From the NCBI RefSeq assembly GCF_016595525.1, contig NZ_JAENII010000006.1, positions 62,001-126,000 on the forward strand: 64,000 bases of DNA, given 5' to 3'. The DNA is from Haloferula rosea (GTDB lineage Bacteria; Verrucomicrobiota; Verrucomicrobiia; Verrucomicrobiales; Akkermansiaceae). Positions 3,114-38,373 of the stretch are shown here, one piece after another; position 1 is the stretch's first letter; the number at the start of each line of letters is the position of its first letter. The notes under the pieces were generated by a model. That model was not told where the DNA came from, did no database searches, and saw nothing but the letters and a program-made list of their open reading frames with translations. The position numbers and the translations under genes are program-made.

Positions 3114-4948
3114 CAATCGCGGAGGCTGGAGTCTTTGAGCTGGTTCTCGCTGTAGTAGATCATTTCCTGCCCGAGCAGCGGATTGCGGTAGGGGAAGCGG
3201 CGGTAGATCGAGGCGATGGTCGGCGCCTTGTCGTAGATGCTGAAACCCGGGCGGCTGGTGGTGGGGCCGGTGATGGAGGCCACGCGACCGTCGAGGACCA
3301 ATGCGGCGAAATCGCCGTAGGTGCTTTGCACGACCTGGGCCGTGCCGGCGTCGCGTGATTCCGGGGTGATGAGGATTCCGGAGAAGCGGGTGCCCAAGTC
3401 GCTTGCCTTGGTGTCGAGCTTGGTGAAATCGTCCATGCTTCGAGGGAGCCACATGCTGTGGGTGTCGGCATACCACGCGACTGCCCATGGTTGGTCGGAA
3501 ATGACGATTTCGGGCTGGAGTGGATCATTTTCCACCCAGTTGGGGAGACCGAGATTCAGCACGATGGGGTAGTAGGGTGGCCATTGCGGCCAGCCGCCCT
3601 TGTCCGAAACCATGAGGTAGTCCTTCACGTCTTTCGGCAGCGTCAGGAGCATGGGTGCGGCGGAGAGCGCGACGATCACGTAGTAGTGGGCATTGCGCAG
3701 GACGGGCAGCGAGGTGACGACGTCGAGCCGGCTCCAGAGGATGGAAAGGAAGGCCAGGCCGTAGGCGGCCATGATGGGAGCGAAGAGCAGGTGAATCTGA
3801 TTCGGGTGGAGGCTTTCCTTACTGTCGATCCCGAAGATGGCCATGCCGAGGGCGGCGAAGAGCCACATCAGGGCAATGAGCCAGCGGAAGCTTGCGATCG
3901 GCTTGCGCTTGAAGGGGTGGAGCAGGGCCACGAAGAAGATCGGCGCGGCCAGAATGCCTCCGAGGAATGGGATCAGGCTGGTTGCCTGAACAAGTGTGGT
4001 ACCGAGGATCTTCAGCAGGAGGCCGTCCAACACCAAGGGAGTGGAGCTGAGGTCGAGCGTCCGCATGATGGTCGACTCGGAACCGCTTGCGAGGCCGTTG
4101 TAGAAGACGAATCGGGCAAGGCCGAAGGGTTGGCCGGTGATGTCGGCCATCCGGTAAATCGGGAACACGACGGCGATGGCGAGAATGGCCAGCGACGACA
4201 GCGCGATGATGCCACGGGGGCGGAAGGCGAAGGCCGCGAAGATGAGGAAGCCGAAGAAGATCCAGGCGGTGATCCAGTGGGTGAGGACCATGAGGGAGAA
4301 GAACGCGGCTGCAATCAGCGGCTGGGCCATGGCACTGCGGCCTTCCTCCTGATCTTCGATCGTCCGGTAGGTGAAGTACAGGCCGCAGCTGAAGAGAAGG
4401 AGCAGCAGCATCTGGGGCAGGCCACTTTGGGAGAACGACCAGAACAGGTCACAAAGCAGCATCATGACTGCGGTGACCCCGGCGATCTTGGCGTCGAATA
4501 TTCGGCTCACCAGCAGGTAGGTGACGCCCATGGCCATGAGGAAAAAGAGCGTCGAAACGAGTGCGACGACCCGATCCAGCTCGTAGATGAGCTCCTTCTT
4601 GCCCATCTCGAAGGCGTCGGGCTTATCGGCGCCGACCAGCTTGAACACAGCACCCAGCACCATGGGATTCAGCGGCGAATGGTAGGTGTCCCTCAGGCCG
4701 ACCAGAGGAACGGTGGTTTCCTGATGGGTTTCCGCGAGGTGGTGCTCCAGCGGTTTGATCACTTTGGTGGTGAGCCCTTCTCCGCGTGAGACCTGGCGGG
4801 CGAGCTGGGCCTGTTCCATGGCCTGAGGGGTGCCGAGACCACGGAAGAGGACCATGAGGTGGATCCAGGTGAGTGCCAGCAGTACGACGAAAAACAGGGC
4901 CCGACGGATGAGGATGGTGCCGTCGAAGGTTTGATTGGGGTTGCTCAT
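3113..4948 (-). CDS. Polytopic membrane protein, GT-C glycosyltransferase-like
   Basis: This 611-residue protein starts with a cytoplasmic tail and a first membrane helix (ALFFVVLLALTWIHLMVLF). A loop with an early acidic/polar stretch follows, then about ten more hydrophobic segments, and a soluble C-terminal domain of roughly 160 residues (from about position 450). That layout fits the GT-C fold of polyprenyl-phosphate-sugar transferases (ArnT/PMT-like), with the catalytic loop after the first helix. I do not see a diagnostic DD or DE motif clearly enough to name a substrate. The stop overlaps the xseB start, and the gene begins 36 bases after the NtrC-type regulator, suggesting one transcript. 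Function is inferred from topology only. Confidence 0.6.
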   Translation of the reverse strand: MSNPNQTFDGTILIRRALFFVVLLALTWIHLMVLFRGLGTPQAMEQAQLARQVSRGEGLTTKVIKPLEHHLAETHQETTVPLVGLRDTYHSPLNPMVLGAVFKLVGADKPDAFEMGKKELIYELDRVVALVSTLFFLMAMGVTYLLVSRIFDAKIAGVTAVMMLLCDLFWSFSQSGLPQMLLLLLFSCGLYFTYRTIEDQEEGRSAMAQPLIAAAFFSLMVLTHWITAWIFFGFLIFAAFAFRPRGIIALSSLAILAIAVVFPIYRMADITGQPFGLARFVFYNGLASGSESTIMRTLDLSSTPLVLDGLLLKILGTTLVQATSLIPFLGGILAAPIFFVALLHPFKRKPIASFRWLIALMWLFAALGMAIFGIDSKESLHPNQIHLLFAPIMAAYGLAFLSILWSRLDVVTSLPVLRNAHYYVIVALSAAPMLLTLPKDVKDYLMVSDKGGWPQWPPYYPIVLNLGLPNWVENDPLQPEIVISDQPWAVAWYADTHSMWLPRSMDDFTKLDTKASDLGTRFSGILITPESRDAGTAQVVQSTYGDFAALVLDGRVASITGPTTSRPGFSIYDKAPTIASIYRRFPYRNPLLGQEMIYYSENQLKDSSLRD

Positions 4949-4984
4949 GGGATGGCTTTTCTGGGGGCGCTGCGGGAAAAGTGT

Positions 4985-6364
4985 TCAGCCGTCGATCTCC
5001 TTGAGCTTCCGCTGCAGGGTTCGGCGGCTGATTCCAAGGAGTTCGGCGGCATGGGTCCGATTTCCCCCCGATTGGTCGAGGGCAGCTCGAATGGTGCGAA
5101 TTTCGAGCGCATGCAAGTTGAATTCCGGAGGCGCCGCAAGGTCGATTTTCCCGGCCCGCTCGGGCGTGGGCACCGCCGCTTCGCCTCGAACGCCTGCCGG
5201 GAGATGCTTCACGTCGATCACGGGTTCGTTCGACATGACGACGCCATGCTCGATGGCGGTGCGGAGTTCGCGGACATTGCCGGGCCACGAATGCTTGCGC
5301 AGGCAGGCCATGGCGGCATCGGAGAGCGGTTTGATCGGGCGCCCGTTTTCCTCGGCGAACTCGCGAAGGAAGCCACCGGCGAGGAGGACAACATCCTCGG
5401 CCCGTTCGCGCAGTGGGGGCATGACGACCCTTACGACATTGAGCCGGAAATAGAGGTCTTCGCGAAAATCCCCGGCTTCAACCATGGCGGCGAGGTCGCG
5501 ATTGGTGGCGGCGAGCACGCGGACGTCGACCTTCACGGTGGTGTTCGAGCCGACGCGTTCGATGGTGCGCTCGGACAGGGCACGGAGGAGTTTGACCTGC
5601 GTGGTGGCATCGATTTCACCGATTTCGTCGAGGAAGAGGGTGCCTCCGTCGGCCTGCTCGAAGCGGCCGATCCGTCGCTGGGAGGCCCCGGTGAATGCTC
5701 CTTTTTCGTGGCCGAAGAGCTCGGATTCGAGGAGTTGGGGGGAAAGGGCGGCGCAGTGGACGATGACCATCTTGTCCTGTGGGCGACCGGAAAGTTGGTG
5801 GATGGCGTGGGCAACGACTTCCTTGCCGGTGCCGCTTTCGCCTTCGATCAGGACCGTGGCACGGGTCGGTGCGACCTGTTTGACGGTATCGATGACTTTC
5901 AGGATGCGCGGCGACTTGCCGGTCAGCCGACCGAGTCCGGCGGGGTCGGGGGCTTGTTCGCGAAGCTGCTTGTTCTCGGTCTCCAGTCGTCGGCTGCGGA
6001 GTGCGCGCTTGAGGAGGAGCTCGACGCCATCGAGGTTGAGCGGCTTGGTGACGAAATTCCATGCCCCGCGGCGCATGGCTTCCACGGCGGTATCCACGGA
6101 GCCGTAGGCGGTCATCATGATGGAGACTGGTGGCTCCGCGATGGAGAGGGCCTCGTCGAGGACCTCCATCCCCGAGTCGCCGCCAAGGCGGAGGTCGGTG
6201 AGGAGGAGTTCGGGCGCGTCGGCCTTCAGGATGGCCCGCGCTTCCTCGAGGTTGGAGGCGGTGGTGACGTCGAATTCTTCTTCGAGCGCAGCACGAAGGC
6301 CATCGCGGGTCGCGATTTCGTCGTCAACGATGAGTAGGGTGGGGAGCATGGGAGCTTTGAGCAC
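4985..6364 (-). CDS. Sigma-54-dependent response regulator, NtrC family
   Basis: The 459-residue protein has the three NtrC-family domains. The receiver (residues about 8-125) has the acidic pair at 14-15, phospho-acceptor Asp57 and Lys107. The AAA+ domain has Walker A GESGTGKE (175-182), GAFTGA (222-227) that touches sigma-54, and Walker B FLDEIGE (244-250). The Fis-type helix-turn-helix lies at the C-terminus (NRTHAAELLGISRRTLQRKL). A start at the internal ATG (6349) would give MLPTLLIVDDE and is equally likely. The histidine kinase 155 bases upstream is the probable partner. The target promoters are unknown; no nitrogen gene is nearby, so I give no gene symbol. Confidence 0.93.
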   Translation of the reverse strand: MLKAPMLPTLLIVDDEIATRDGLRAALEEEFDVTTASNLEEARAILKADAPELLLTDLRLGGDSGMEVLDEALSIAEPPVSIMMTAYGSVDTAVEAMRRGAWNFVTKPLNLDGVELLLKRALRSRRLETENKQLREQAPDPAGLGRLTGKSPRILKVIDTVKQVAPTRATVLIEGESGTGKEVVAHAIHQLSGRPQDKMVIVHCAALSPQLLESELFGHEKGAFTGASQRRIGRFEQADGGTLFLDEIGEIDATTQVKLLRALSERTIERVGSNTTVKVDVRVLAATNRDLAAMVEAGDFREDLYFRLNVVRVVMPPLRERAEDVVLLAGGFLREFAEENGRPIKPLSDAAMACLRKHSWPGNVRELRTAIEHGVVMSNEPVIDVKHLPAGVRGEAAVPTPERAGKIDLAAPPEFNLHALEIRTIRAALDQSGGNRTHAAELLGISRRTLQRKLKEIDG

Positions 6365-6519
6365 GGAACGATCTACAGGGTCGATCGAAGTTCTGATGAA
6401 GTTTGTGCGAGAGAGGTTGGAATGGTTCGGCGTGCTGGGTGGACTGCCAAGGCCGAGGAATCAGTCGGAGATTCAGCGGGGAGGCCCGGCGTTCCGGGGC
6501 TGATGGCGGGGTTCCATGT

Positions 6520-7689
6520 TCAATCGATATCAATCACGCGGTCGGAGGACTCGAGAAGGCGAACGGGTTTGGGACCGCGGGGGAGGAGGATGAGGATGGT
6601 GGTGCCTGCGTCGGGTTCACTTTCGATCTCGATCTCGCCGCCGTGCTCGCGGACCACGCGGCGGACGATGAGCAGGCCGAGGCCGGTGCCGGATTGTTTG
6701 GTGGTCTGGTAGGGCTCGAAGAGCGATCCCATCTGTTCAGGGTCGATGCCCTTGCCGGTGTCCGCAATGGAGATACGGCATTCGTAGTCGTTGTAGCTGG
6801 TGGACACCTTGATGCGGCCGTCCCCCGATGGCATGGCCTGGTAGGCATTGCGGAGGAGGTTGTAGAAGACCTGTTGGAACTGGGTGGCATCGAGTTCCAT
6901 CGCGGGGAAGCCGTCGGCGAGGTCGAGTTCCACGGCGATGTTGCGGGATGCGAGTTCGGGCTCGAGGAGCTTGAGGGTGTCCTGCAGGACCTGATGGAGT
7001 TCGCAGCGCTCGCGCTGGGGGCTCGTAGGGCGGATGGCTTCGAGGAACTGCCTCAGGATGGTGTCGAGGCGCTGGATTTCGCGTCGTGCGGTATCGAGGT
7101 GTTCGGTGAGGGGTTTCCGGTCGCCGGGGGGGAGCTTCCTGAGCTTGCGTTCGAGGAGTTGGAGGTGGATGTCGAGCGAGTTGAGCGGGTTGCCGATCTC
7201 ATGGGCGACGCCGGCGGCGAGCAGGGTGAGGGCATTGAGCCGCTCGCTTTCCAGCTCGTTGGCGGCCTGTTCGCGGGAGCGGGTCTGGTCGCGGACGAGC
7301 ATCACCCAGCCGAACGACTCACCTCCCAGATTCGAGGTGATGGGTGAGAGGTAGAAATTGAGGTATCGGTTGTCCGGGTAGAAGACTTCGAGATCGCGCG
7401 ATACGGTTTTGCCGGGCTTGGCGATGGTTTCCCAATCGAGGCCGGGAATCCGCTGGGTGAGGCGTTCGCCGACGATTTCGTCTCCGAGACCGAAGAAGCG
7501 TTGGGCGGCTCCGTTGATGAAGGTGACGAGGCCTTCGGCATCGAGGACGATGACTCCTTCGTGCAGGGCCTCGAAGACCTGCTCCAGAAAGCCTTTCTCG
7601 CGGATGAGGCGGGAAAGGAGCTGCTGCGCCTCAGCCGGGTCGATGCGGTCGAGCCGGGCGAGGAGCTTTTCGAGGAATCCGGATTTCAC
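6520..7689 (-). CDS. PAS-domain sensor histidine kinase, NtrB type
   Basis: This 389-residue soluble kinase has an N-terminal helix, a PAS domain (about 35-145, FEALHEGVIVLDAEGLVTFINGAA), a HisKA dimerisation domain with the H-box LAAGVAHEIGNPLNSL (phospho-His163), and a HATPase domain with the N-box FYNLLRNAYQAMP, ADTGKGID and GTGLGL. No membrane segment is visible, so it should sense an intracellular signal through PAS. It lies directly before the NtrC-type regulator on the same strand, separated by 155 bases that may hold a second promoter. The start is 45 bases from the divergent cutA start, so the two promoters must share that gap. Confidence 0.92.
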   Translation of the reverse strand: MKSGFLEKLLARLDRIDPAEAQQLLSRLIREKGFLEQVFEALHEGVIVLDAEGLVTFINGAAQRFFGLGDEIVGERLTQRIPGLDWETIAKPGKTVSRDLEVFYPDNRYLNFYLSPITSNLGGESFGWVMLVRDQTRSREQAANELESERLNALTLLAAGVAHEIGNPLNSLDIHLQLLERKLRKLPPGDRKPLTEHLDTARREIQRLDTILRQFLEAIRPTSPQRERCELHQVLQDTLKLLEPELASRNIAVELDLADGFPAMELDATQFQQVFYNLLRNAYQAMPSGDGRIKVSTSYNDYECRISIADTGKGIDPEQMGSLFEPYQTTKQSGTGLGLLIVRRVVREHGGEIEIESEPDAGTTILILLPRGPKPVRLLESSDRVIDID

Positions 7690-31804: not shown

Positions 31805-33412
31805 TCAGGGCTGCAGCGCCGTAAAATCGAGGTCCCACTTGGCGAGATACTTCTTCAGGCGATCGGCGTCGTTGGTGACCTTGCGCTTCTTGCGCGTGGC
31901 GGCGAACAGCTCGCGCCCTGCTTCGGACAGCGACTTGGAGCGCTGGCAGACGGCGACGACGTGGGCGAGTTGGACGCGGTCAAAGGGGTCGATCTCCTCG
32001 AGTTGGGCGGCGCCGATGAACCGCGCGAGGTCGGCCTGCTCCGAGTGCTGGGGCGTGCTGGGGCGGTACCAACTTTCACGCAGCCGGATCACTTCTTCGT
32101 CGACGTCCTCACGGCGGATTCGCCCCCGTGGAGCGAGGGTGGCCATGCGGGTGACGGCGGCGTTCAGATCACGGAAATTTCCGAGCCACGGGGTGTCGGG
32201 AGCTTCGGCGAACTTGAGGAAATGCTCGCGGGCCTCCTTGTTGAACGAGATCGCCCTGTTGTCGCTTTCGGTGAAGCGGCGCAGTTCGTAGTCAAGATTG
32301 GGCGCGATGTCCTCGCGGCGCTCCTTCAGGGCTGGAAGAGAGAAGGTCCACAGGTGGATCCTCGCCAGCAGGTCTTCGCGGAAGCGTCCCTCGGCGACTT
32401 CGTCGCGCAGATCCCGGTTGGTGCCGGCGATGAGTTGGAAGTTGCTCTTCACCGGAGCATCCGCGCCGACGGGGAGGAAGGTCTTCTCTTCCAGCGCGTG
32501 GAGCAGTTTGGCTTGCTCGTCGAGTCCCAGCTCTCCGATTTCATCGAGGAAAAGCAGTCCCTTGTGGGCTTGTCGGAGGAGCCCGGGGCGGTCGGATTGG
32601 GCTCCGGTGAAGGCACCCCGCCGGTGGCCGAACAAGGCGGATGCCGCCGTATCTCCGGTCAGGGTGGCACAGTTCACCTCGACGAATTCCCCGTCGAGTC
32701 CGCCGCGTTGGTGCCTGAGTTGATAGATGCGTCGTGCAAGGTGGCTCTTGCCCGCGCCCGTGGGCCCGGTCAGGAGCATCGGAGCCTTCGAGCGCAGGGC
32801 GACCTGCTCGATTCGTTCGATCAGGCGGTTGAAGTTCGCGGAGCGCGTGGCGATGCCGCTCTTCAGAAAATCGGTGGTTTCCTCAAGGTCCCGGGCAAAG
32901 CGGGTACTAAGGTCGTCGTATTTCGAGAGATCGAGGTCGATCAGCGAGTAGCGCCCGGGAGCTCCCAAATCCTTGCGACGCTGCCCACGTGGGGGTGCGG
33001 TCTGAATCAGGCGACCCGGTAGGAACCCCGCTTCATTCAGAAGGAAGAGGGAGATCTGTGCGATGTGTGTGCCTGTGGTGATGTGGATGAGGTAGTCGAC
33101 CTTCTCGCGGTCGAACTCGTAGCCCCGGGCCCAATCGTGGAGCGCCCCATAGACGTCGGCCAGATCCCACGGGTCGCGGCCGAAACGGACTTCATGGGTG
33201 TGGACTTCGGTCTCCGGTGACACCAGGCGGATGTCCTCCACCACCTTCTGAGCCAAAGCATGGGAAGAGGGGTCGTGGAGCAGTTCGAAGCGATCGATGA
33301 GGAGATCCTCGTGCTGAAAGAGCGATACGCTGGGGCGCCACTTGTCCCACCGCTCCGCCGAGCTCCCGCGGTCGAGAGTGGTCCCCAGAAGGCCAATGGC
33401 GGTGCGTTTCAT
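31805..33412 (-). CDS. rtcR: RtcR, CARF-domain sigma-54 activator of RNA repair
   Basis: RtcR activates sigma-54 transcription of rtcBA. The 535-residue protein has an N-terminal CARF-type sensor domain (about 1-185; IGLLGTTLD at the start, YLIHITTGTHIAQISLFLLNEAGFLPGRLIQTAPP in the middle). The AAA+ domain has Walker A GPTGAGKS (216-223), GAFTGA (266-271) and Walker B FLDEIGE (288-294). A C-terminal helical DNA-binding region follows. In studied cases the CARF domain is thought to sense RNA ends or a nucleotide made upon RNA damage. It is divergent from the rsr-rtcBA unit, with a sigma-54 promoter in the 285-base gap. CARF here has no link to a CRISPR locus. Confidence 0.93.
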   Translation of the reverse strand: MKRTAIGLLGTTLDRGSSAERWDKWRPSVSLFQHEDLLIDRFELLHDPSSHALAQKVVEDIRLVSPETEVHTHEVRFGRDPWDLADVYGALHDWARGYEFDREKVDYLIHITTGTHIAQISLFLLNEAGFLPGRLIQTAPPRGQRRKDLGAPGRYSLIDLDLSKYDDLSTRFARDLEETTDFLKSGIATRSANFNRLIERIEQVALRSKAPMLLTGPTGAGKSHLARRIYQLRHQRGGLDGEFVEVNCATLTGDTAASALFGHRRGAFTGAQSDRPGLLRQAHKGLLFLDEIGELGLDEQAKLLHALEEKTFLPVGADAPVKSNFQLIAGTNRDLRDEVAEGRFREDLLARIHLWTFSLPALKERREDIAPNLDYELRRFTESDNRAISFNKEAREHFLKFAEAPDTPWLGNFRDLNAAVTRMATLAPRGRIRREDVDEEVIRLRESWYRPSTPQHSEQADLARFIGAAQLEEIDPFDRVQLAHVVAVCQRSKSLSEAGRELFAATRKKRKVTNDADRLKKYLAKWDLDFTALQP

Positions 33413-33640: not shown

Positions 33641-33656
33641 TGGCACGGAGCTTGCC
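33641..33656 (+). promoter_or_regulatory. Sigma-54 promoter of the rsr-Y RNA-rtcBA unit
   Basis: TGGCACGGAGCTTGCC matches the -24/-12 consensus TGGCAC-N5-TTGC exactly, with the invariant GG and GC ten bases apart. Transcription should begin near 33667, about 30 bases before the rsr ATG. The upstream 33485-33640 is strikingly AT-rich for this genome, as expected for bendable DNA between activator sites and a sigma-54 promoter. The divergent RtcR is the obvious activator. Confidence 0.85.
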
Positions 33657-33697: not shown

Positions 33698-35275
33698 ATG
33701 GCAAACAAGAACCTCTTCCGATCCCTCCGTGGGGCGCTCGCTCCTCAAGCGACGACCCGCAACCGTGCCGGTGGTCCCGCTTATTCGCTTTCGGACCGGG
33801 CGACTCTGGCTCGGGTGGCAGCGACGGGATGCCTGACTCCCACTTTCTACGCCTCGGCGGAGAACCAGCTCGATCGGGTGCTCGAGCTGGCCGCCCGGGT
33901 GGACGTCGATTTCGTCGCCAAGACGGCGCTCTATGCACGTCGGCGCGGTCACATGAAGGACATGCCGGCGCTGCTTTGCGCGGTTCTGGCAGGTCGTGAC
34001 CTCGAGCGCTTTGCCGAGGTCTTTCCCCAGGTCATCGACAACGGACGCATGCTCCGGACCTTCGTCCAGATTCTGCGTTCCGGGGTCACCGGGCGGAAGT
34101 CCCTCGGCTCGGCGCCCAAGCGTCAGGTCCGCCGCTGGCTCGAACGGGCCAGCGACCGGAAGCTGCTGCAGGCGTCGATCGGCAATGCCCCTTCGCTGGC
34201 TGACATCGTCAAGATGGTTCATCCGCGTCCGGACAGTGCCACCCGGGAAGCCTTCTATGGATGGCTCCTGGGGCGTCCATACGATGCGGCTGCCCTGCCC
34301 GGCTTGGTGCGTGAGTTCGAAGCATGGAAGAAGGACCAGACGGGAGAAGTCCCCGAGGTTCCCTTCCAGATGCTGACCGCTATGGATCTGCAGCCACGGG
34401 AATGGACCGCGATCGCCGGTGCCGCGAGCTGGCAGCAGACGCGGATGAACCTGAACGCCTTCGCTCGTCACGGCGTCTTCCGTTTCGGCGGGATGGCCGA
34501 CATGATCGCCGATCGTCTTCGTCATCCCGAGTTGATCCGTCGGTCGCGGGTCCTTCCCTACCAGTTGATGGTTGCCTATCTGAATGCTTCGGATCAGGTG
34601 CCGGAGAAGGTGCGGGAGGCTCTGCAGGACGCGATGGAGATCGCTCTCCAGAATGTGCCGAAGATCGATGGTTCAGTAGTCGTGTGTCCGGACGTGTCCG
34701 GGTCCATGCAATGGCCGGTCACCGGGTGGCAAAGGAGCGCGAGCTCGGCAGTCCGCTGTGTGGATGTCGCCGGTCTTGTGGCTGCCGCGCTGCTTCGCGA
34801 CAACCGATCTGCCCGGGTTCTGCCCTTCGAGTTCGATGTCGTGGACGCCCGCTTGAACCCGCGTGACTCGGTCATGACGAATGCCCACAAGCTCACGCAG
34901 GTGGGTGGCGGGGGAACCAACTGTTCGGCACCCTTGCGGCAACTCAACCGCGAAGGCGCTGCGCCGGACCTCGTCATCTACGTCTCGGACAACGAGTCCT
35001 GGGTCGACGCCCAGCGAGGTGGTCGGGCAACCGCCGTCATGGCCGAATGGGAGAAGCTCAAGCAGCGGAACCCGCGGGCCAGGATGGTCTGCATCGACAT
35101 CGTGCCGAACGCGACCACCCAGGCTCCCGACCGAGCGGACATCCTCAACGTTGGCGGCTTCAGTGACGCGGTCTTCGAGATCATCGGTTCCTTTGCGAAG
35201 GGTGGCAACGCCACGGACCACTGGATCCGGGAGATCGATCAGGAAACCCTCAACCCACGAATCAAAATCGCATGA
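33698..35275 (+). CDS. rsr: Rsr, bacterial Ro60 (TROVE plus vWA) RNA-binding protein
   Basis: The 525-residue protein has the HEAT-like TROVE ring (about 1-320, including DRVLELAARVDVDFVAKTALYARRRGHMKDMPALL) and a C-terminal von Willebrand A-like domain with an intact MIDAS: DVSGSM at 332-337, GGGGTNCSAPL with the conserved Thr, and YVSDNESW. Ro60/Rsr rings bind Y RNAs on their outer surface and misfolded or damaged RNA ends in the central hole. In Deinococcus the complex tethers polynucleotide phosphorylase. It is the first gene after the sigma-54 promoter; four Y-RNA-like structures begin within about 10 bases of its stop codon. Confidence 0.93.
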   Translation: MANKNLFRSLRGALAPQATTRNRAGGPAYSLSDRATLARVAATGCLTPTFYASAENQLDRVLELAARVDVDFVAKTALYARRRGHMKDMPALLCAVLAGRDLERFAEVFPQVIDNGRMLRTFVQILRSGVTGRKSLGSAPKRQVRRWLERASDRKLLQASIGNAPSLADIVKMVHPRPDSATREAFYGWLLGRPYDAAALPGLVREFEAWKKDQTGEVPEVPFQMLTAMDLQPREWTAIAGAASWQQTRMNLNAFARHGVFRFGGMADMIADRLRHPELIRRSRVLPYQLMVAYLNASDQVPEKVREALQDAMEIALQNVPKIDGSVVVCPDVSGSMQWPVTGWQRSASSAVRCVDVAGLVAAALLRDNRSARVLPFEFDVVDARLNPRDSVMTNAHKLTQVGGGGTNCSAPLRQLNREGAAPDLVIYVSDNESWVDAQRGGRATAVMAEWEKLKQRNPRARMVCIDIVPNATTQAPDRADILNVGGFSDAVFEIIGSFAKGGNATDHWIREIDQETLNPRIKIA

Positions 35276-35280
35276 AAAGA

Positions 35281-35368
35281 TCGGCCAGCACTGCGGATGC
35301 AGAGCCTGACTACATCGTCTATGGAACGCCCATGTCAGGTCCAACTTCTTGCCGCGGTGCTGGCCACC
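35281..35368 (+). ncRNA. Y-RNA-like RNA A
   Basis: The ends pair in a 14-bp stem (GGCCAGCACTGCGG at 35283-35296 with CCGCGGTGCTGGCC at 35352-35365, one G-U). An internal loop follows with ATGC on the 5' strand and TTG on the 3' strand, then a second stem (CCTGAC at 35305-35310, GTCAGG at 35333-35338) and a loop region with a small ATGG/CCAT hairpin. It lacks T-arm and D-arm modules. The loop elements match those of RNAs B-D, and the stem pair beside the loop is G-C here but A-U in B-D, a compensatory change supporting the fold. It begins 6 bases after the rsr stop. Confidence 0.75.
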
Positions 35369-35462
35369 CTTGCCGAATGCAGGTGGGACTCCACTTGATT
35401 CCGGAGACGGAGTGGAATCACTCGCCGGAGAGCACGTCTCATCGCCCAACTTGTCGGCACTC
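35369..35462 (+). ncRNA. Y-RNA-like RNA B
   Basis: The terminal stem is TGCCGA (35371-35376) with TCGGCA (35454-35459), next to the family motif AATGC on the 5' strand and ACTTG on the 3' strand. Inside, one hairpin is possible at AGGTGG-GACT-CCACTT (35381-35396), and a second with GAGACG (35404-35409) pairing CGTCTC (35435-35440) around GAGTG-GAAT-CACTC. No T-arm sequence is present. It follows RNA A directly, with no room for a separate promoter, so processing from the operon transcript is likely. Confidence 0.7.
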
Positions 35463-35471
35463 TATATCTCA

Positions 35472-35597
35472 ACCCGCGAATGCAGACAGGATTCCATTCG
35501 GATCGCAGGATCCCCGGTTCGAGTCCGGCACCTCATCGAGGTGAATGCCCTTGGGTGAGGGCAAATCCACATCTTGTCGACTCCCTTGTCGCGGACT
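35472..35597 (+). ncRNA. YrlA-like RNA C with permuted tRNA-like module
   Basis: Outer stem CCGCGA (35474-35479) with TCGCGG (35589-35594); family motif ATGC / CCTTG; inner stem GACAGG (35485-35490) with CTTGTC (35573-35578). The module inside holds a T-arm (CCGG-TTCGAGT-CCGG, 35514-35528), then a closed acceptor-like hairpin (CACCTC at 35529-35534, loop ATC, GAGGTG at 35538-35543), then a D-arm (TGCCC-TTGGGTGA-GGGCA, 35546-35563). The order T, acceptor, D is circularly permuted relative to tRNA, with the anticodon position joined to the Y-RNA stem (GGAT/ATCC). Confidence 0.78.
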
Positions 35598-35614
35598 TCT
35601 CATCCTAACCCACT

Positions 35615-35752
35615 TTCGCGGCGAATGCCGATGGAACTACATCATTACTAATGACCAGGTCGCCGGTTCGAATCCGGCTCGGGCCACCATCGACGGCCCG
35701 GTAGCTCAGTGGTAGAGCGGGAAACTTGTTTCATCACCTTTGTCGCCGCGAT
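35615..35752 (+). ncRNA. yrlA: YrlA-like RNA D with permuted tRNA-like module and ACCA loop
   Basis: Outer stem CGCGGCGA (35617-35624) pairs perfectly with TCGCCGCG (35743-35750); family motif ATGC / CTTTG; inner stem GATGGAAC (35630-35637) with GTTTCATC (35728-35735). The module holds a perfect 5-bp T-arm (GCCGG-TTCGAAT-CCGGC, 35662-35678). A 7-bp acceptor-like stem follows (TCGGGCC at 35679-35685 with GGCCCGG at 35695-35701), closed by ACCATCGAC, then a canonical D-arm (GCTC-AGTGGTA-GAGC, 35704-35718). The bases after the 3' acceptor strand read A-CCA, like a tRNA 3' end. There is no anticodon arm in place, so it is not a decoding tRNA. T-rich sequence follows before rtcB. Confidence 0.85.
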
Positions 35753-35790
35753 CCTTTTCCTTACTTCAATCATCACTTCTTATCCTCACC

Positions 35791-37275
35791 ATGAACACCA
35801 TCCACAAAACTGACGAAGCTGTCGGATTCATCCCGCTCCCCGGAGACAAGGGAAAGCCCATCACCGTGATCGGGAATGACTACATCCGTAGTACGTTCGA
35901 CGAGATGTGCCTGCAGCAGGTCGTGAACTCGCGCATGGCTCCCGGGGTCACCGACGCCATTCTCAACCCCGACGGACACGTCGGATACGGCGCACCAATC
36001 GGATGCGTGATGGTGTCGCCGACGCACATCTATCCCGGCCCTGTCGGGGTCGATATCAAGTGCTCGATGTCCCTCCTCCAGATGGATATCCCCGAGGATG
36101 TGATCGAGGATAAGCGAACCCGCCGTGCCCTGATCAACGCCATCACCGAGCGGACTCCGACCGGTGCGGGACGTGGACAGCGCAGCGTGCCCAAGGGACG
36201 CCGCGTCGATCAGAAGCTCGGAGCCCGGGCGGTCACCGAAGGAGTTTCGGAGGCTGTCTGTGAAGCGCTCGGAATTCCGCCCGAATGGGCGGAGTGCTGC
36301 GAGGACTCGGCCCACGTCGGTCACGACGGAAGCCGGGATGCCCTCGAGTCGCGACTCGAGTGGATTCTTGAAACCAAGCGGATCCGGAATTTCGGCGACA
36401 AGATGGGTCAACTCGGATCCTACGGAGGGGGCAACCACTTCGGAGAGTGCGAGATCACCCGCGTCCAGGACCGTCCATCGATGCGTGAGACCTCGAAGTC
36501 ATTCGGCTTGAAGGACGGTCACGTGTCGTTTCTGAGCCACTGCGGATCGCGAGGGTTTGGAAACCTGTTGGCACAGCATCAGTTCAAGGATCTCGAGCGC
36601 AAGTTCGAGACCTGGAGCACGCCGTACCCTGCAGGTGACAAGAAGCTCGTCTACGCGCCGCTTGGAACTCCCGAGGCCAATGCCTATTTGGATGACATGG
36701 CGCTGGGTGCGAACTTCGCGACCGTCAACCACATGCTGATCAATGCTTTGGTCCTCGAGGCCTTCCAGGAGGTCCTCCCCGGCACAACGGGAGAGCTCGT
36801 GTATTTCATTTCCCATAACATCGCCCGTGAGGAGATCGTCGATGGGAAGAAATCATGGGTTCACCGGAAGGGCGCGACGCGTGCCGTGCCCGCCGGGCAC
36901 TTCTCGCTGGCTGGAACCCGCTTCGCAGAAACGGGGCATCCCATCCTGCTCCCTGGAAACCCTCGTGACGGCTCGGTCGTCATGGTGGCCCGGGGTGGGG
37001 CCGAGCGCACGGCGTGGTCGGTCAATCACGGAGCCGGTCGACAGCTTGGACGTCGAAACGCGTTCCGAACCCTCGACCAAAAGGCGGTGGACGCGGAGTT
37101 CGATACTTCGGACATCCTCTTCAACGGGCGGAAGTATCCGCTCGACGAAGCGCCCGATGCCTACAAGAACTTCCCTGAAGTTCTCCACAGTGTCGAAGCT
37201 GCCGGCCTGGCCGAAACCGTGGCGAAGCTGCAGGCGCGCTTCGTCGTCAAGGACTCGGCGGAGGCGGATGACTGA
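35791..37275 (+). CDS. rtcB: RtcB RNA ligase
   Basis: RtcB joins RNA 2',3'-cyclic phosphate or 3'-phosphate ends to 5'-OH ends using GTP and Mn2+. The 494-residue protein shows PDGHVGYGAPIGCV, then GPVGVDIKCSMSLL with metal-binding Cys91, GSYGGGNHFGECE and FLSHCGSRGFG with metal-binding His residues, FISHNIAREE, and VNHGAGRQLGRR with His413 at the guanylylation position. All catalytic positions I can place are intact. The ATG lies 40 bases after RNA D. It is the third element of the sigma-54 unit (rsr, Y RNAs, rtcB, rtcA). Confidence 0.95.
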   Translation: MNTIHKTDEAVGFIPLPGDKGKPITVIGNDYIRSTFDEMCLQQVVNSRMAPGVTDAILNPDGHVGYGAPIGCVMVSPTHIYPGPVGVDIKCSMSLLQMDIPEDVIEDKRTRRALINAITERTPTGAGRGQRSVPKGRRVDQKLGARAVTEGVSEAVCEALGIPPEWAECCEDSAHVGHDGSRDALESRLEWILETKRIRNFGDKMGQLGSYGGGNHFGECEITRVQDRPSMRETSKSFGLKDGHVSFLSHCGSRGFGNLLAQHQFKDLERKFETWSTPYPAGDKKLVYAPLGTPEANAYLDDMALGANFATVNHMLINALVLEAFQEVLPGTTGELVYFISHNIAREEIVDGKKSWVHRKGATRAVPAGHFSLAGTRFAETGHPILLPGNPRDGSVVMVARGGAERTAWSVNHGAGRQLGRRNAFRTLDQKAVDAEFDTSDILFNGRKYPLDEAPDAYKNFPEVLHSVEAAGLAETVAKLQARFVVKDSAEADD

Positions 37276-37356: not shown

Positions 37357-38373
37357 ATGGCAAAATTGATTCAACTCGATGGAGGTTCCGGCGGTGGCCA
37401 GATGCTGCGCACAGCGCTGAGTCTGTCCATGGTGACGGGGCAGCCGTTCCGCATGACCGGGATCCGGGGCAAGCGCCGCAAGCCGGGGTTGATGCGCCAG
37501 CATCTCACTTGTGTGCGGGCGGCCTGTGAGATTTCAGGTGGCACCGCAGACGGTGCGGAAATCGGTTCGACCGAACTGGTCTTCCGTGCTGGTGAGGTGA
37601 AGCCGGGTTCCTATCAGTTCGCCGTTGGCACGGCGGGGAGCACTTCCCTGCTGCTGCAGACCTTGTTGCCCGCGCTGTGGTCGTGTGGTGGCGAGAGTTC
37701 GCTCAGGTTGGAGGGGGGAACACTCAATCCAATGGCGCCTCCGTTCGAGTATCTCGACGCGGTCTTCCTCCCTGCAATGGCGAGGATGGGGGCGGTTGCG
37801 GAGGTGAGGCTGGTGGAAACCGGCTTTGCTCCTGCGGGGGGTGGGATGATCGAGTGCAATGTGAAGCCTTGCAGTGGCTTCACTGAGATCGATTGGTCCG
37901 ACCGGGGCGAGCTCGTCTCGAAATCGATCCGGGTACCGGTGCGCGAGCTTCCCTTATCGATCGCGGGGCGGATCCTCGATTCCGCCCTGGCGGCCTATCC
38001 CTGTGAGGATGCGGTGGTCGAGTCGCGGGAACCCGGACCGGGTCGTGGTGTCGCTTGCCTGGTATCGGCGGAATTCGAGAAAGCGTGCGAGATGGGAGTC
38101 TCGTTTGGTCAACATGGGATCAGCGCCGAGCGGGTCGGCAAGCAGGCTGCCAAGCTGATGAACAATTTCATCGGCAGTGGGGTGGCGGTGGGTCTCCACC
38201 TCGCAGACCAATTGCTTCTGCCCATGGCGCTCGCGGGCTGCGGACGATTCACGACGATCCGGCCCGACTCCCATGTGCCGACGAATATCTCGGTGATCGA
38301 GAAATTCCTGCCGGTGAAGTTCGGGTTGTCCGAGGAGGACAAACGCTGGGAGATCGCCGTCACTTCGGGGTGA
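37357..38373 (+). CDS. rtcA: RtcA RNA 3'-terminal phosphate cyclase
   Basis: RtcA converts RNA 3'-phosphate ends to 2',3'-cyclic phosphates with ATP via a His-AMP intermediate. The 338-residue protein has GGGQMLRTALSLSMVTGQPF, then RKPGLMRQHLTCVRAA, FAVGTAGSTSLLLQTLLPALW, HLADQLLLPMALAG and SHVPTNISVIEKFLPVKF, where His306 aligns with the adenylated His of the Escherichia coli enzyme. One oddity: the N-terminal motif is DGGSGGGQ rather than DGxQGEGGGQ, so the usual metal-binding Glu is missing and the loop is two residues shorter. It closes the RNA-repair unit. Confidence 0.9.
   Translation: MAKLIQLDGGSGGGQMLRTALSLSMVTGQPFRMTGIRGKRRKPGLMRQHLTCVRAACEISGGTADGAEIGSTELVFRAGEVKPGSYQFAVGTAGSTSLLLQTLLPALWSCGGESSLRLEGGTLNPMAPPFEYLDAVFLPAMARMGAVAEVRLVETGFAPAGGGMIECNVKPCSGFTEIDWSDRGELVSKSIRVPVRELPLSIAGRILDSALAAYPCEDAVVESREPGPGRGVACLVSAEFEKACEMGVSFGQHGISAERVGKQAAKLMNNFIGSGVAVGLHLADQLLLPMALAGCGRFTTIRPDSHVPTNISVIEKFLPVKFGLSEEDKRWEIAVTSG

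Follow-up and report, generated by a model that had tools for sequence, protein, structure and literature searches.

A close described counterpart of the locus analysed here is the rsr-yrlBA-rtcBA operon of Salmonella Typhimurium, with rtcR, rsr, Y RNA genes, rtcB and rtcA together with sigma-54 control (PMC7790460). According to the same source (Hughes 2020), 5' tRNA halves with a terminal cyclic phosphate activate RtcR, Salmonella YrlA remains uncut when tRNAs are cut, with YrlA fragments undetected, and YrlA might competitively inhibit the nuclease. In E. coli, VapC cuts initiator tRNA and induces rtcBA, and healing of that tRNA is described as not apparent (PMC5175333). tmRNA is named beside Y RNA as a tRNA mimic (PMC8394870).

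The same components are found in the window, by which we mean the whole 64,000-nucleotide stretch of Haloferula rosea DNA that was analysed. The name of the Salmonella operon (yrlB, yrlA) denotes two Y RNAs, whereas the window has four units in a row, A to D, between rsr and rtcB. We consider it highly probable that these are tandem Y RNA genes belonging to an operon for RNA repair, each closed by a putative Rsr-docking stem, with inner parts that differ.

The repair operon and its four intergenic units

31805..33412, minus strand: rtcR, encoding the sigma-54 activator of the operon, divergently oriented to rsr (Pfam RtcR 6.8e-76, Sigma54_activat 1.9e-50)
33641..33656, plus strand: sigma-54 (-24/-12) promoter-like site TGGCACGgagcTTGCC, which starts 57 bases ahead of the rsr ATG
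33698..35275, plus strand: rsr, Ro60 homologue (Pfam vWA_Ro60 7.8e-16; best PDB match 2nvo Rsr 3.1e-20)
35283..35365, plus strand: unit A, Y RNA-like, 14-pair closing stem, without tRNA arms (scan, fold against shuffles)
35371..35459, plus strand: unit B, Y RNA-like, 6-pair closing stem, without T arm or acceptor (YrlA 23.5 bits)
35474..35594, plus strand: unit C, candidate Y RNA with degraded tRNA-like body, 6-pair closing stem (YrlA 27.8 bits)
35616..35751, plus strand: unit D, candidate Y RNA of the YrlA type whose tRNA body is circularly permuted (YrlA 65.1 bits)
35791..37275, plus strand: rtcB, RNA ligase (Pfam RtcB 1.4e-97)
37357..38373, plus strand: rtcA, RNA 3'-phosphate cyclase (Pfam RTC 5.9e-73)

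The genes for RtcR, Rsr, RtcB and RtcA lie together, as in an rsr-Y RNA-rtcBA repair operon. The TROVE part of Rsr is matched at 8e-4 only, which is under the Pfam cut-off. The promoter of such an operon is present as a sequence match: TGGCACGNNNNTTGC has a single exact match in the window against 0.03 expected, namely the sigma-54 site upstream of rsr, which scores 11 of 12 positions. A match of at least 10 of the 12 positions is found upstream of rsr in 32 of the 50 loci examined, as opposed to 0.2% of shuffles. RtcR and sigma-54 would most likely switch the repair operon on.

Between the end of rsr (35275) and the rtcB ATG (35791) lies a gap of 515 bases, which an earlier note had described as not empty. 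This is borne out by a scan for ATGC and TTG with six or more uninterrupted pairs on their outer side, G-U pairs included. The strict scan of the gap returned exactly the four units A, B, C and D, whereas mononucleotide shuffles give 0.01 on average (n=100) and order-1 Markov simulations 0.02 (n=50). With four units observed against about 0.02 expected, chance stems were rejected as an explanation. The stem lengths given earlier stand for A (14 pairs), B (6) and C (6), whereas D has 9 pairs and not 8, and the four units are present with boundaries that were off by 1-3 bases. Compared with dinucleotide shuffles, the folds of A (z -4.99, 0/200 as good), D (z -2.82, 2/200) and C (z -2.13, 8/200) are better than expected, but the fold of B is not (z -0.80, 44/200).

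The closing stem of all four units carries the bases typical of rsr-linked bacterial Y RNAs, GAAUGC/CUUGUCG or, in unit A, GGAUGC/CUUGCCG, and the array adjoins the Ro60/Rsr gene, where such RNAs are encoded. The compensatory exchange of A-U for G-C beside the loop of unit A, which had been noticed before, is real and recurs in relatives: the pair is AU in 16 and GC in 2 sequences of the D-class alignment A3 (columns 10/147, n=18), and AU in 10, GU in 2 and GC in 1 of the alignment A1 of an initiator-like class (columns 8/140, n=13). The closing stem as a whole is conserved in relatives, with compensatory changes in the alignments of array units. The inner stem is followed by a second motif, CUACA in A and D, CUCCA in B and UUCCA in C, which corresponds to CUAC in the Rfam consensus.

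The units lie inside a probable operon, and a search of the rsr-rtcB gap for a terminator-like or sigma-70-like site found none, as would be expected if the structures were parts of the rsr-rtcB mRNA (leader hairpins, or processing or stability elements for rtcB) and not separate RNAs. This appears improbable, because the units are each self-closed and have the Y RNA motif, and because the number and order of the units vary among relatives while the genes stay. The four units are most likely the Y RNAs of the rtcR / rsr-Y RNA-rtcBA RNA-repair operon and, judging from their sequence, would be transcribed and bound by Rsr.

The comparison with Rfam is compatible with this assignment without being decisive. 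At the gathering score, there is no match anywhere in the 64-kb window. With all matches shown, a 651-base search gives full-length alignments of the YrlA family (RF02553) to D (65.1 bits, E 1.4e-14), C (27.8 bits) and B (23.5 bits), and leaves A unmatched. The gathering score of YrlA is 69 bits, and since all four units stay below it, formal membership of Rfam YrlA is not claimed. Genome-wide, YrlA also matches 7 of 14 control genomes at E <= 0.001, none above the cut-off, and the sub-threshold score is therefore not our main argument for Y RNAs, which is the common closing stem, the position and the conservation. The earlier description of the units as Y RNA-like and adjacent to genes for a Ro60 homologue and an RNA ligase agrees with the YrlA matches to D, C and B and with the Pfam and PDB identities of the genes.

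Unit D and its permuted tRNA body

35616..35624 with 35743-35751, plus strand: closing stem of D, 5' and 3' strands, 9 pairs (scan, alignment)
35630..35637 with 35728-35735, plus strand: inner stem of D, 5' and 3' strands (YrlA match, alignment)
35642..35654, plus strand: extra hairpin of D, UCAUUacuAAUGA, an insertion relative to Rfam YrlA (helix 3 of the D-class alignment)
35662..35678, plus strand: T arm of D, GCCGGTTCGAATCCGGC (YrlA match, alignment)
35679..35685, plus strand: acceptor stem of D, tRNA 3' strand, pairing with 35695-35701 (alignment)
35686..35694, plus strand: acceptor loop of D, ACCA + UCGAC
35704..35718, plus strand: D arm of D, GCTCAGTGGTAGAGC (YrlA match, alignment)
35514-35528, plus strand: T-arm-like element of C
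35529-35543, plus strand: acceptor-like hairpin of C
35547-35562, plus strand: D-arm-like hairpin of C

Unit D begins with the closing stem, AUGC, the inner stem, CUACA, the extra hairpin and the T arm. The acceptor 3' strand UCGGGCC, ACCA, UCGAC, the acceptor 5' strand GGCCCGG and UA follow, and the D arm, the inner stem, UUG and the closing stem complete it. As predicted from this order, the unit is a tRNA whose anticodon loop is opened and whose 7-bp acceptor is closed. Unit D shares with YrlA the closing stem GAAUGC/CUUGUCG, the CUAC motif, and T arm, closed acceptor and D arm in identical order; it differs in the extra hairpin and in a 9-base acceptor loop that starts with ACCA. The tRNA-like domain of YrlA (T arm, closed acceptor, D arm) is present in D, degraded in C and absent in A and B. 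The earlier note had overlooked both the CUACA-type motif and the tRNA-like bodies of D and C. The units differ in kind: D is a tRNA mimic by its predicted structure, C a degraded one, and A and B are without a tRNA body. tmRNA, which also carries a tRNA-like domain, has a free chargeable CCA end, whereas the CCA of unit D sits within a closed loop.

The predicted structure is conserved with covariation. In the D-class alignment (18 sequences, MAFFT, not structure-fitted), 96.4% of cells are paired and 16 pairs are changed on both sides, values of which neither is reached in any of 500 shuffles; 49 cells are changed on both sides as opposed to 0-7 in slid versions. Like the other covariation structures, that of the D class was derived from its own alignment, and two of its pairs were added by hand. 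The extra hairpin contains one pair with 10 double changes and four pair types (n=18), and its pair 33/40 is unpaired in 8 of the 18 units. With the covariance model R3, unit D scores 139.3 bits, but it is one of the 18 training sequences of that model.

The sequence of 3' half with ACCA, spacer and 5' half is also the layout of permuted tRNA genes, which are known in algae and archaea (PMC3978253) and likewise have the 3' half ahead of the 5' half. That unit D is such a gene, giving a working tRNA once processed, is nevertheless very improbable. It holds no complete tRNA with an anticodon: the anticodon loop is missing and both halves lead into Y RNA base stems, which occupy the break point, so that no tRNA can come from it. 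ARAGORN reports no tRNA in the window, although the program may miss permuted tRNAs, and most D-class relatives do not retain ACCA. Only window D, L092.2, L096.2 and L107.4, 4 of the 18 aligned D-class units, have the exact ACCA after a 7-pair acceptor, the others having acceptor loops such as ACTTT or AACATCGAC, and a conserved role of the acceptor-loop CCA was rejected as a strong claim on this ground. Among the 105 of 156 array units that could be parsed (51 in which the T or the D arm was not recognised were left out), CCA occurs near the start of the acceptor loop in 17 units versus 8.1 in shuffles, with 1 of 2000 shuffles as high. This enrichment is suggestive only, because at least 6 of the 17 units depend on doubtful 2-3-pair stems and because the units are related.

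The remaining units depart from this pattern to different degrees. Unit C scores 42.5 bits with R3, 38.8 with R1 and 23.5 with R2. Unit A reaches 27.5 bits with R2 via the Rsr-type stem only, and is a singleton in clustering, though similar to short units without tRNA arms. Unit B scores 44.0 bits with R1 and 15.7 with R2, is not reported by R3, and retains CCGGAG and CUCGCCGG. Its closing stem UGCCGA/UCGGCA is the usual one of the initiator-like class that is described below, and it stands second in the array after a short unit, like the initiator-like units in L087, L090 and L100. Only these stem ends and residual motifs are shared with that class, and its A11:U24-type D arm pattern is matched by no unit of the window. 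Unit B may be a collapsed member of the initiator-tRNA-like class, a plausible descent that is unproven because T arm and acceptor are missing.

Arrays and tRNA types in related genomes

An rsr match at E <= 1e-20 is present in 40 of the 260 genomes of the family that were searched. Across 53 loci, the strict scan finds 156 units in rsr-rtcB gaps, versus 0.64 expected in all, with a maximum of 7 in L087. It finds none in four loci, namely L039, where the contig ends 210 bases past rsr, L047, L050 and L052. At E <= 1, model R3 has 157 matches across 39 family sources (38 related loci and the window); one match outside the gap was left out (L105 225-394, 15.1 bits), and the other 156, hand-checked, lie within rsr-rtcB gaps. 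The number per locus ranges from 1 (L108, cut by the contig end) to 9 (L088) and is at least 4 in 19 of the 39 loci, counts that are too low because R3 detects only two of the four units of the window. Four units in one locus, which the earlier note had considered exceptional, are thus neither a record nor unusual. L083, from the genus of the window, has the same rsr locus as L051. A deltaproteobacterial locus (L038 2492-3325) has five Y RNA units after rsr, tRNA-like and plain ones alternating, and such arrays are therefore not confined to the family of the window.

A new finding in relatives is that some array members have, by comparison of predicted arms, the D arm of a single tRNA type, namely the initiator or Leu. 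Clustering of the 156 strict-scan units gives a generic YrlA cluster of 71 and two clusters that stand out, with 14 and 10 units. When their D arms are compared with the 42 tRNAs of the window's genome, initiator tRNA is the nearest for 11 units of the 14-unit cluster (1 tied, 2 elsewhere), and tRNA-Leu for 9 of the 10-unit cluster (1 tied). At a D-arm score of at least 26, 9/14 are called initiator and 6/10 Leu in the two clusters, and none of the 132 other units is called either (52 of them score below 26). Only the initiator among the 42 tRNAs has an A11:U24 pair, which is found in 13/13 aligned initiator-like units. The initiator-like class also keeps an anticodon-stem remnant, 4 of whose 5 pairs have changed on both sides. 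The signal for the classes comes from the D arm and from patterns that were written after the classes had been seen. Over the whole body, initiator tRNA is the best match for 4 of the 14 initiator-like units, with Asp, Cys, Trp or Pro elsewhere, mostly via the T stem, and tRNA-Leu for 9 of the 10 Leu-like units, with some scores near the shuffled maximum. The canonical elongator D-arm pattern is present in 77 of the 156 units.

Sequences that were not used in building models from the clusters fall into the same classes. L105 4756-4879 scores 97.5 bits with R1 and 34.4 with R3, and L093 1751-1886, whose D arm is that of tRNA-Leu and which has a long hairpin resembling a variable arm, scores 108.3 bits with R2. 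R2 scores drop from 100.7 to 58.1 with nothing in between, and 11 loci have a Leu-like unit. With R1, 15 units score at least 97 bits and the next one 88.3, but the R1 score alone assigns no class, because unit D also reaches 74.4 bits. Among the titles and abstract openings covered by a literature search, none describes tRNA-specific Y RNAs, though the main Y RNA papers may do so. A Y RNA unit outside the strict scan, L107 4447-4573, has a D arm, TAGTTCAATTGGATAGAAC, that resembles tRNA-Arg of the window's genome.

Possible origin and function

The acceptor loop of unit D, a CCA end followed by a 5-base spacer, looks like the junction of two tandem tRNA genes and suggests a concrete origin. 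R1, which was built from Y RNAs only, also matches tRNA clusters in a search of 387 genomes of the phylum. In the 19 of these matches with loci (L144-L162), the matched 5' half is an initiator tRNA in 16, and two tandem initiator genes are covered in 11, with two Asn-Asn pairs and a single pair of elongator-type Met tRNAs as the exceptions. Since the model matches across tandem tRNA genes, a Y RNA body of this type is equivalent to the place where two tRNA genes join head to tail, and we infer that Y RNAs may have arisen from such junctions. An origin by tandem duplication has been proposed for the permuted tRNA genes of other organisms (PMC3978253).

In the proposed mechanism, each RNA would close on itself, and the GAAUGC/CUUGUCG-type stem would, by homology, be the place where Rsr binds. 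D would present the permuted tRNA body, with the Rsr stem in place of the anticodon loop, C the degraded one, and A and B hairpins only. The tRNA body would presumably recruit or block tRNA-handling enzymes.

How it would do so can be read in several ways. The tRNA-like units may tether exonucleases (PNPase, for example) to Rsr or obstruct the ring with which Rsr binds RNA, the tRNA shape being a docking fold only and unrelated to particular tRNAs. Such a role is published for Rsr, Y RNA and PNPase of Deinococcus (PMC7790460, PMC8394870) and would agree with the prevalence of the generic elongator D arm among tRNA-like units, whereas the retention of one tRNA's D arm in two classes of relatives would be needless for a docking fold. 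We give this reading a little less than an even chance. Our leading guess for the function, given about one chance in three, is that the tRNA-like units are decoys held by Rsr, which anticodon nucleases or tRNA enzymes bind and cannot cut in the anticodon loop, when broken tRNAs switch the operon on. The D-arm classes fit, without proving, the published idea of Y RNAs as uncuttable tRNA decoys. The generic elongator type of most units, the lack of a tRNA body in A and B, and the Deinococcus tethering role count against it, and owing to A and B it cannot account for all four units. The D-arm classes hint at a reason for the resemblance of bacterial Y RNAs to tRNAs. If the Y RNAs of one operon copy different tRNAs, including the targets of toxins, the decoy idea becomes testable nuclease by nuclease.

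A more speculative and rather doubtful extension is that the arrays of the family are panels of tRNA look-alikes (initiator, Leu, elongator), derived from tandem-tRNA junctions and with the Rsr stem for the anticodon loop, which act as isotype decoys or repair scaffolds against the anticodon nucleases that trigger RtcR. The window would then hold a reduced panel, with D as an intact elongator-type mimic, C as a decayed mimic, B as a collapsed initiator-type unit and A as a plain Y RNA.

Other genes are found next to arrays in at least some relatives. With rsr taken as the plus strand, L083 has at 4668-5260, on the opposite strand between array and rtcB, a DUF433 and DUF5615/PIN-like gene pair, of a kind that we take to be toxin-antitoxin-like, and similar ORFs occur in L085. 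A PIN-domain and FitA-like antitoxin gene pair adjoins the Y RNA array at L110 4409-5049 (rsr as plus); VapC-like PIN toxins of other bacteria cleave tRNAs. In L087, the gap before rtcB encodes a protein with CPCC cysteine-rich and DUF6714 domains (5821-6636), and the ORF 4498-5028 of this locus has no Pfam match. An Rsr relative is also encoded in 354 of 50,697 phage records, mostly of Mycobacterium and Streptomyces phages.
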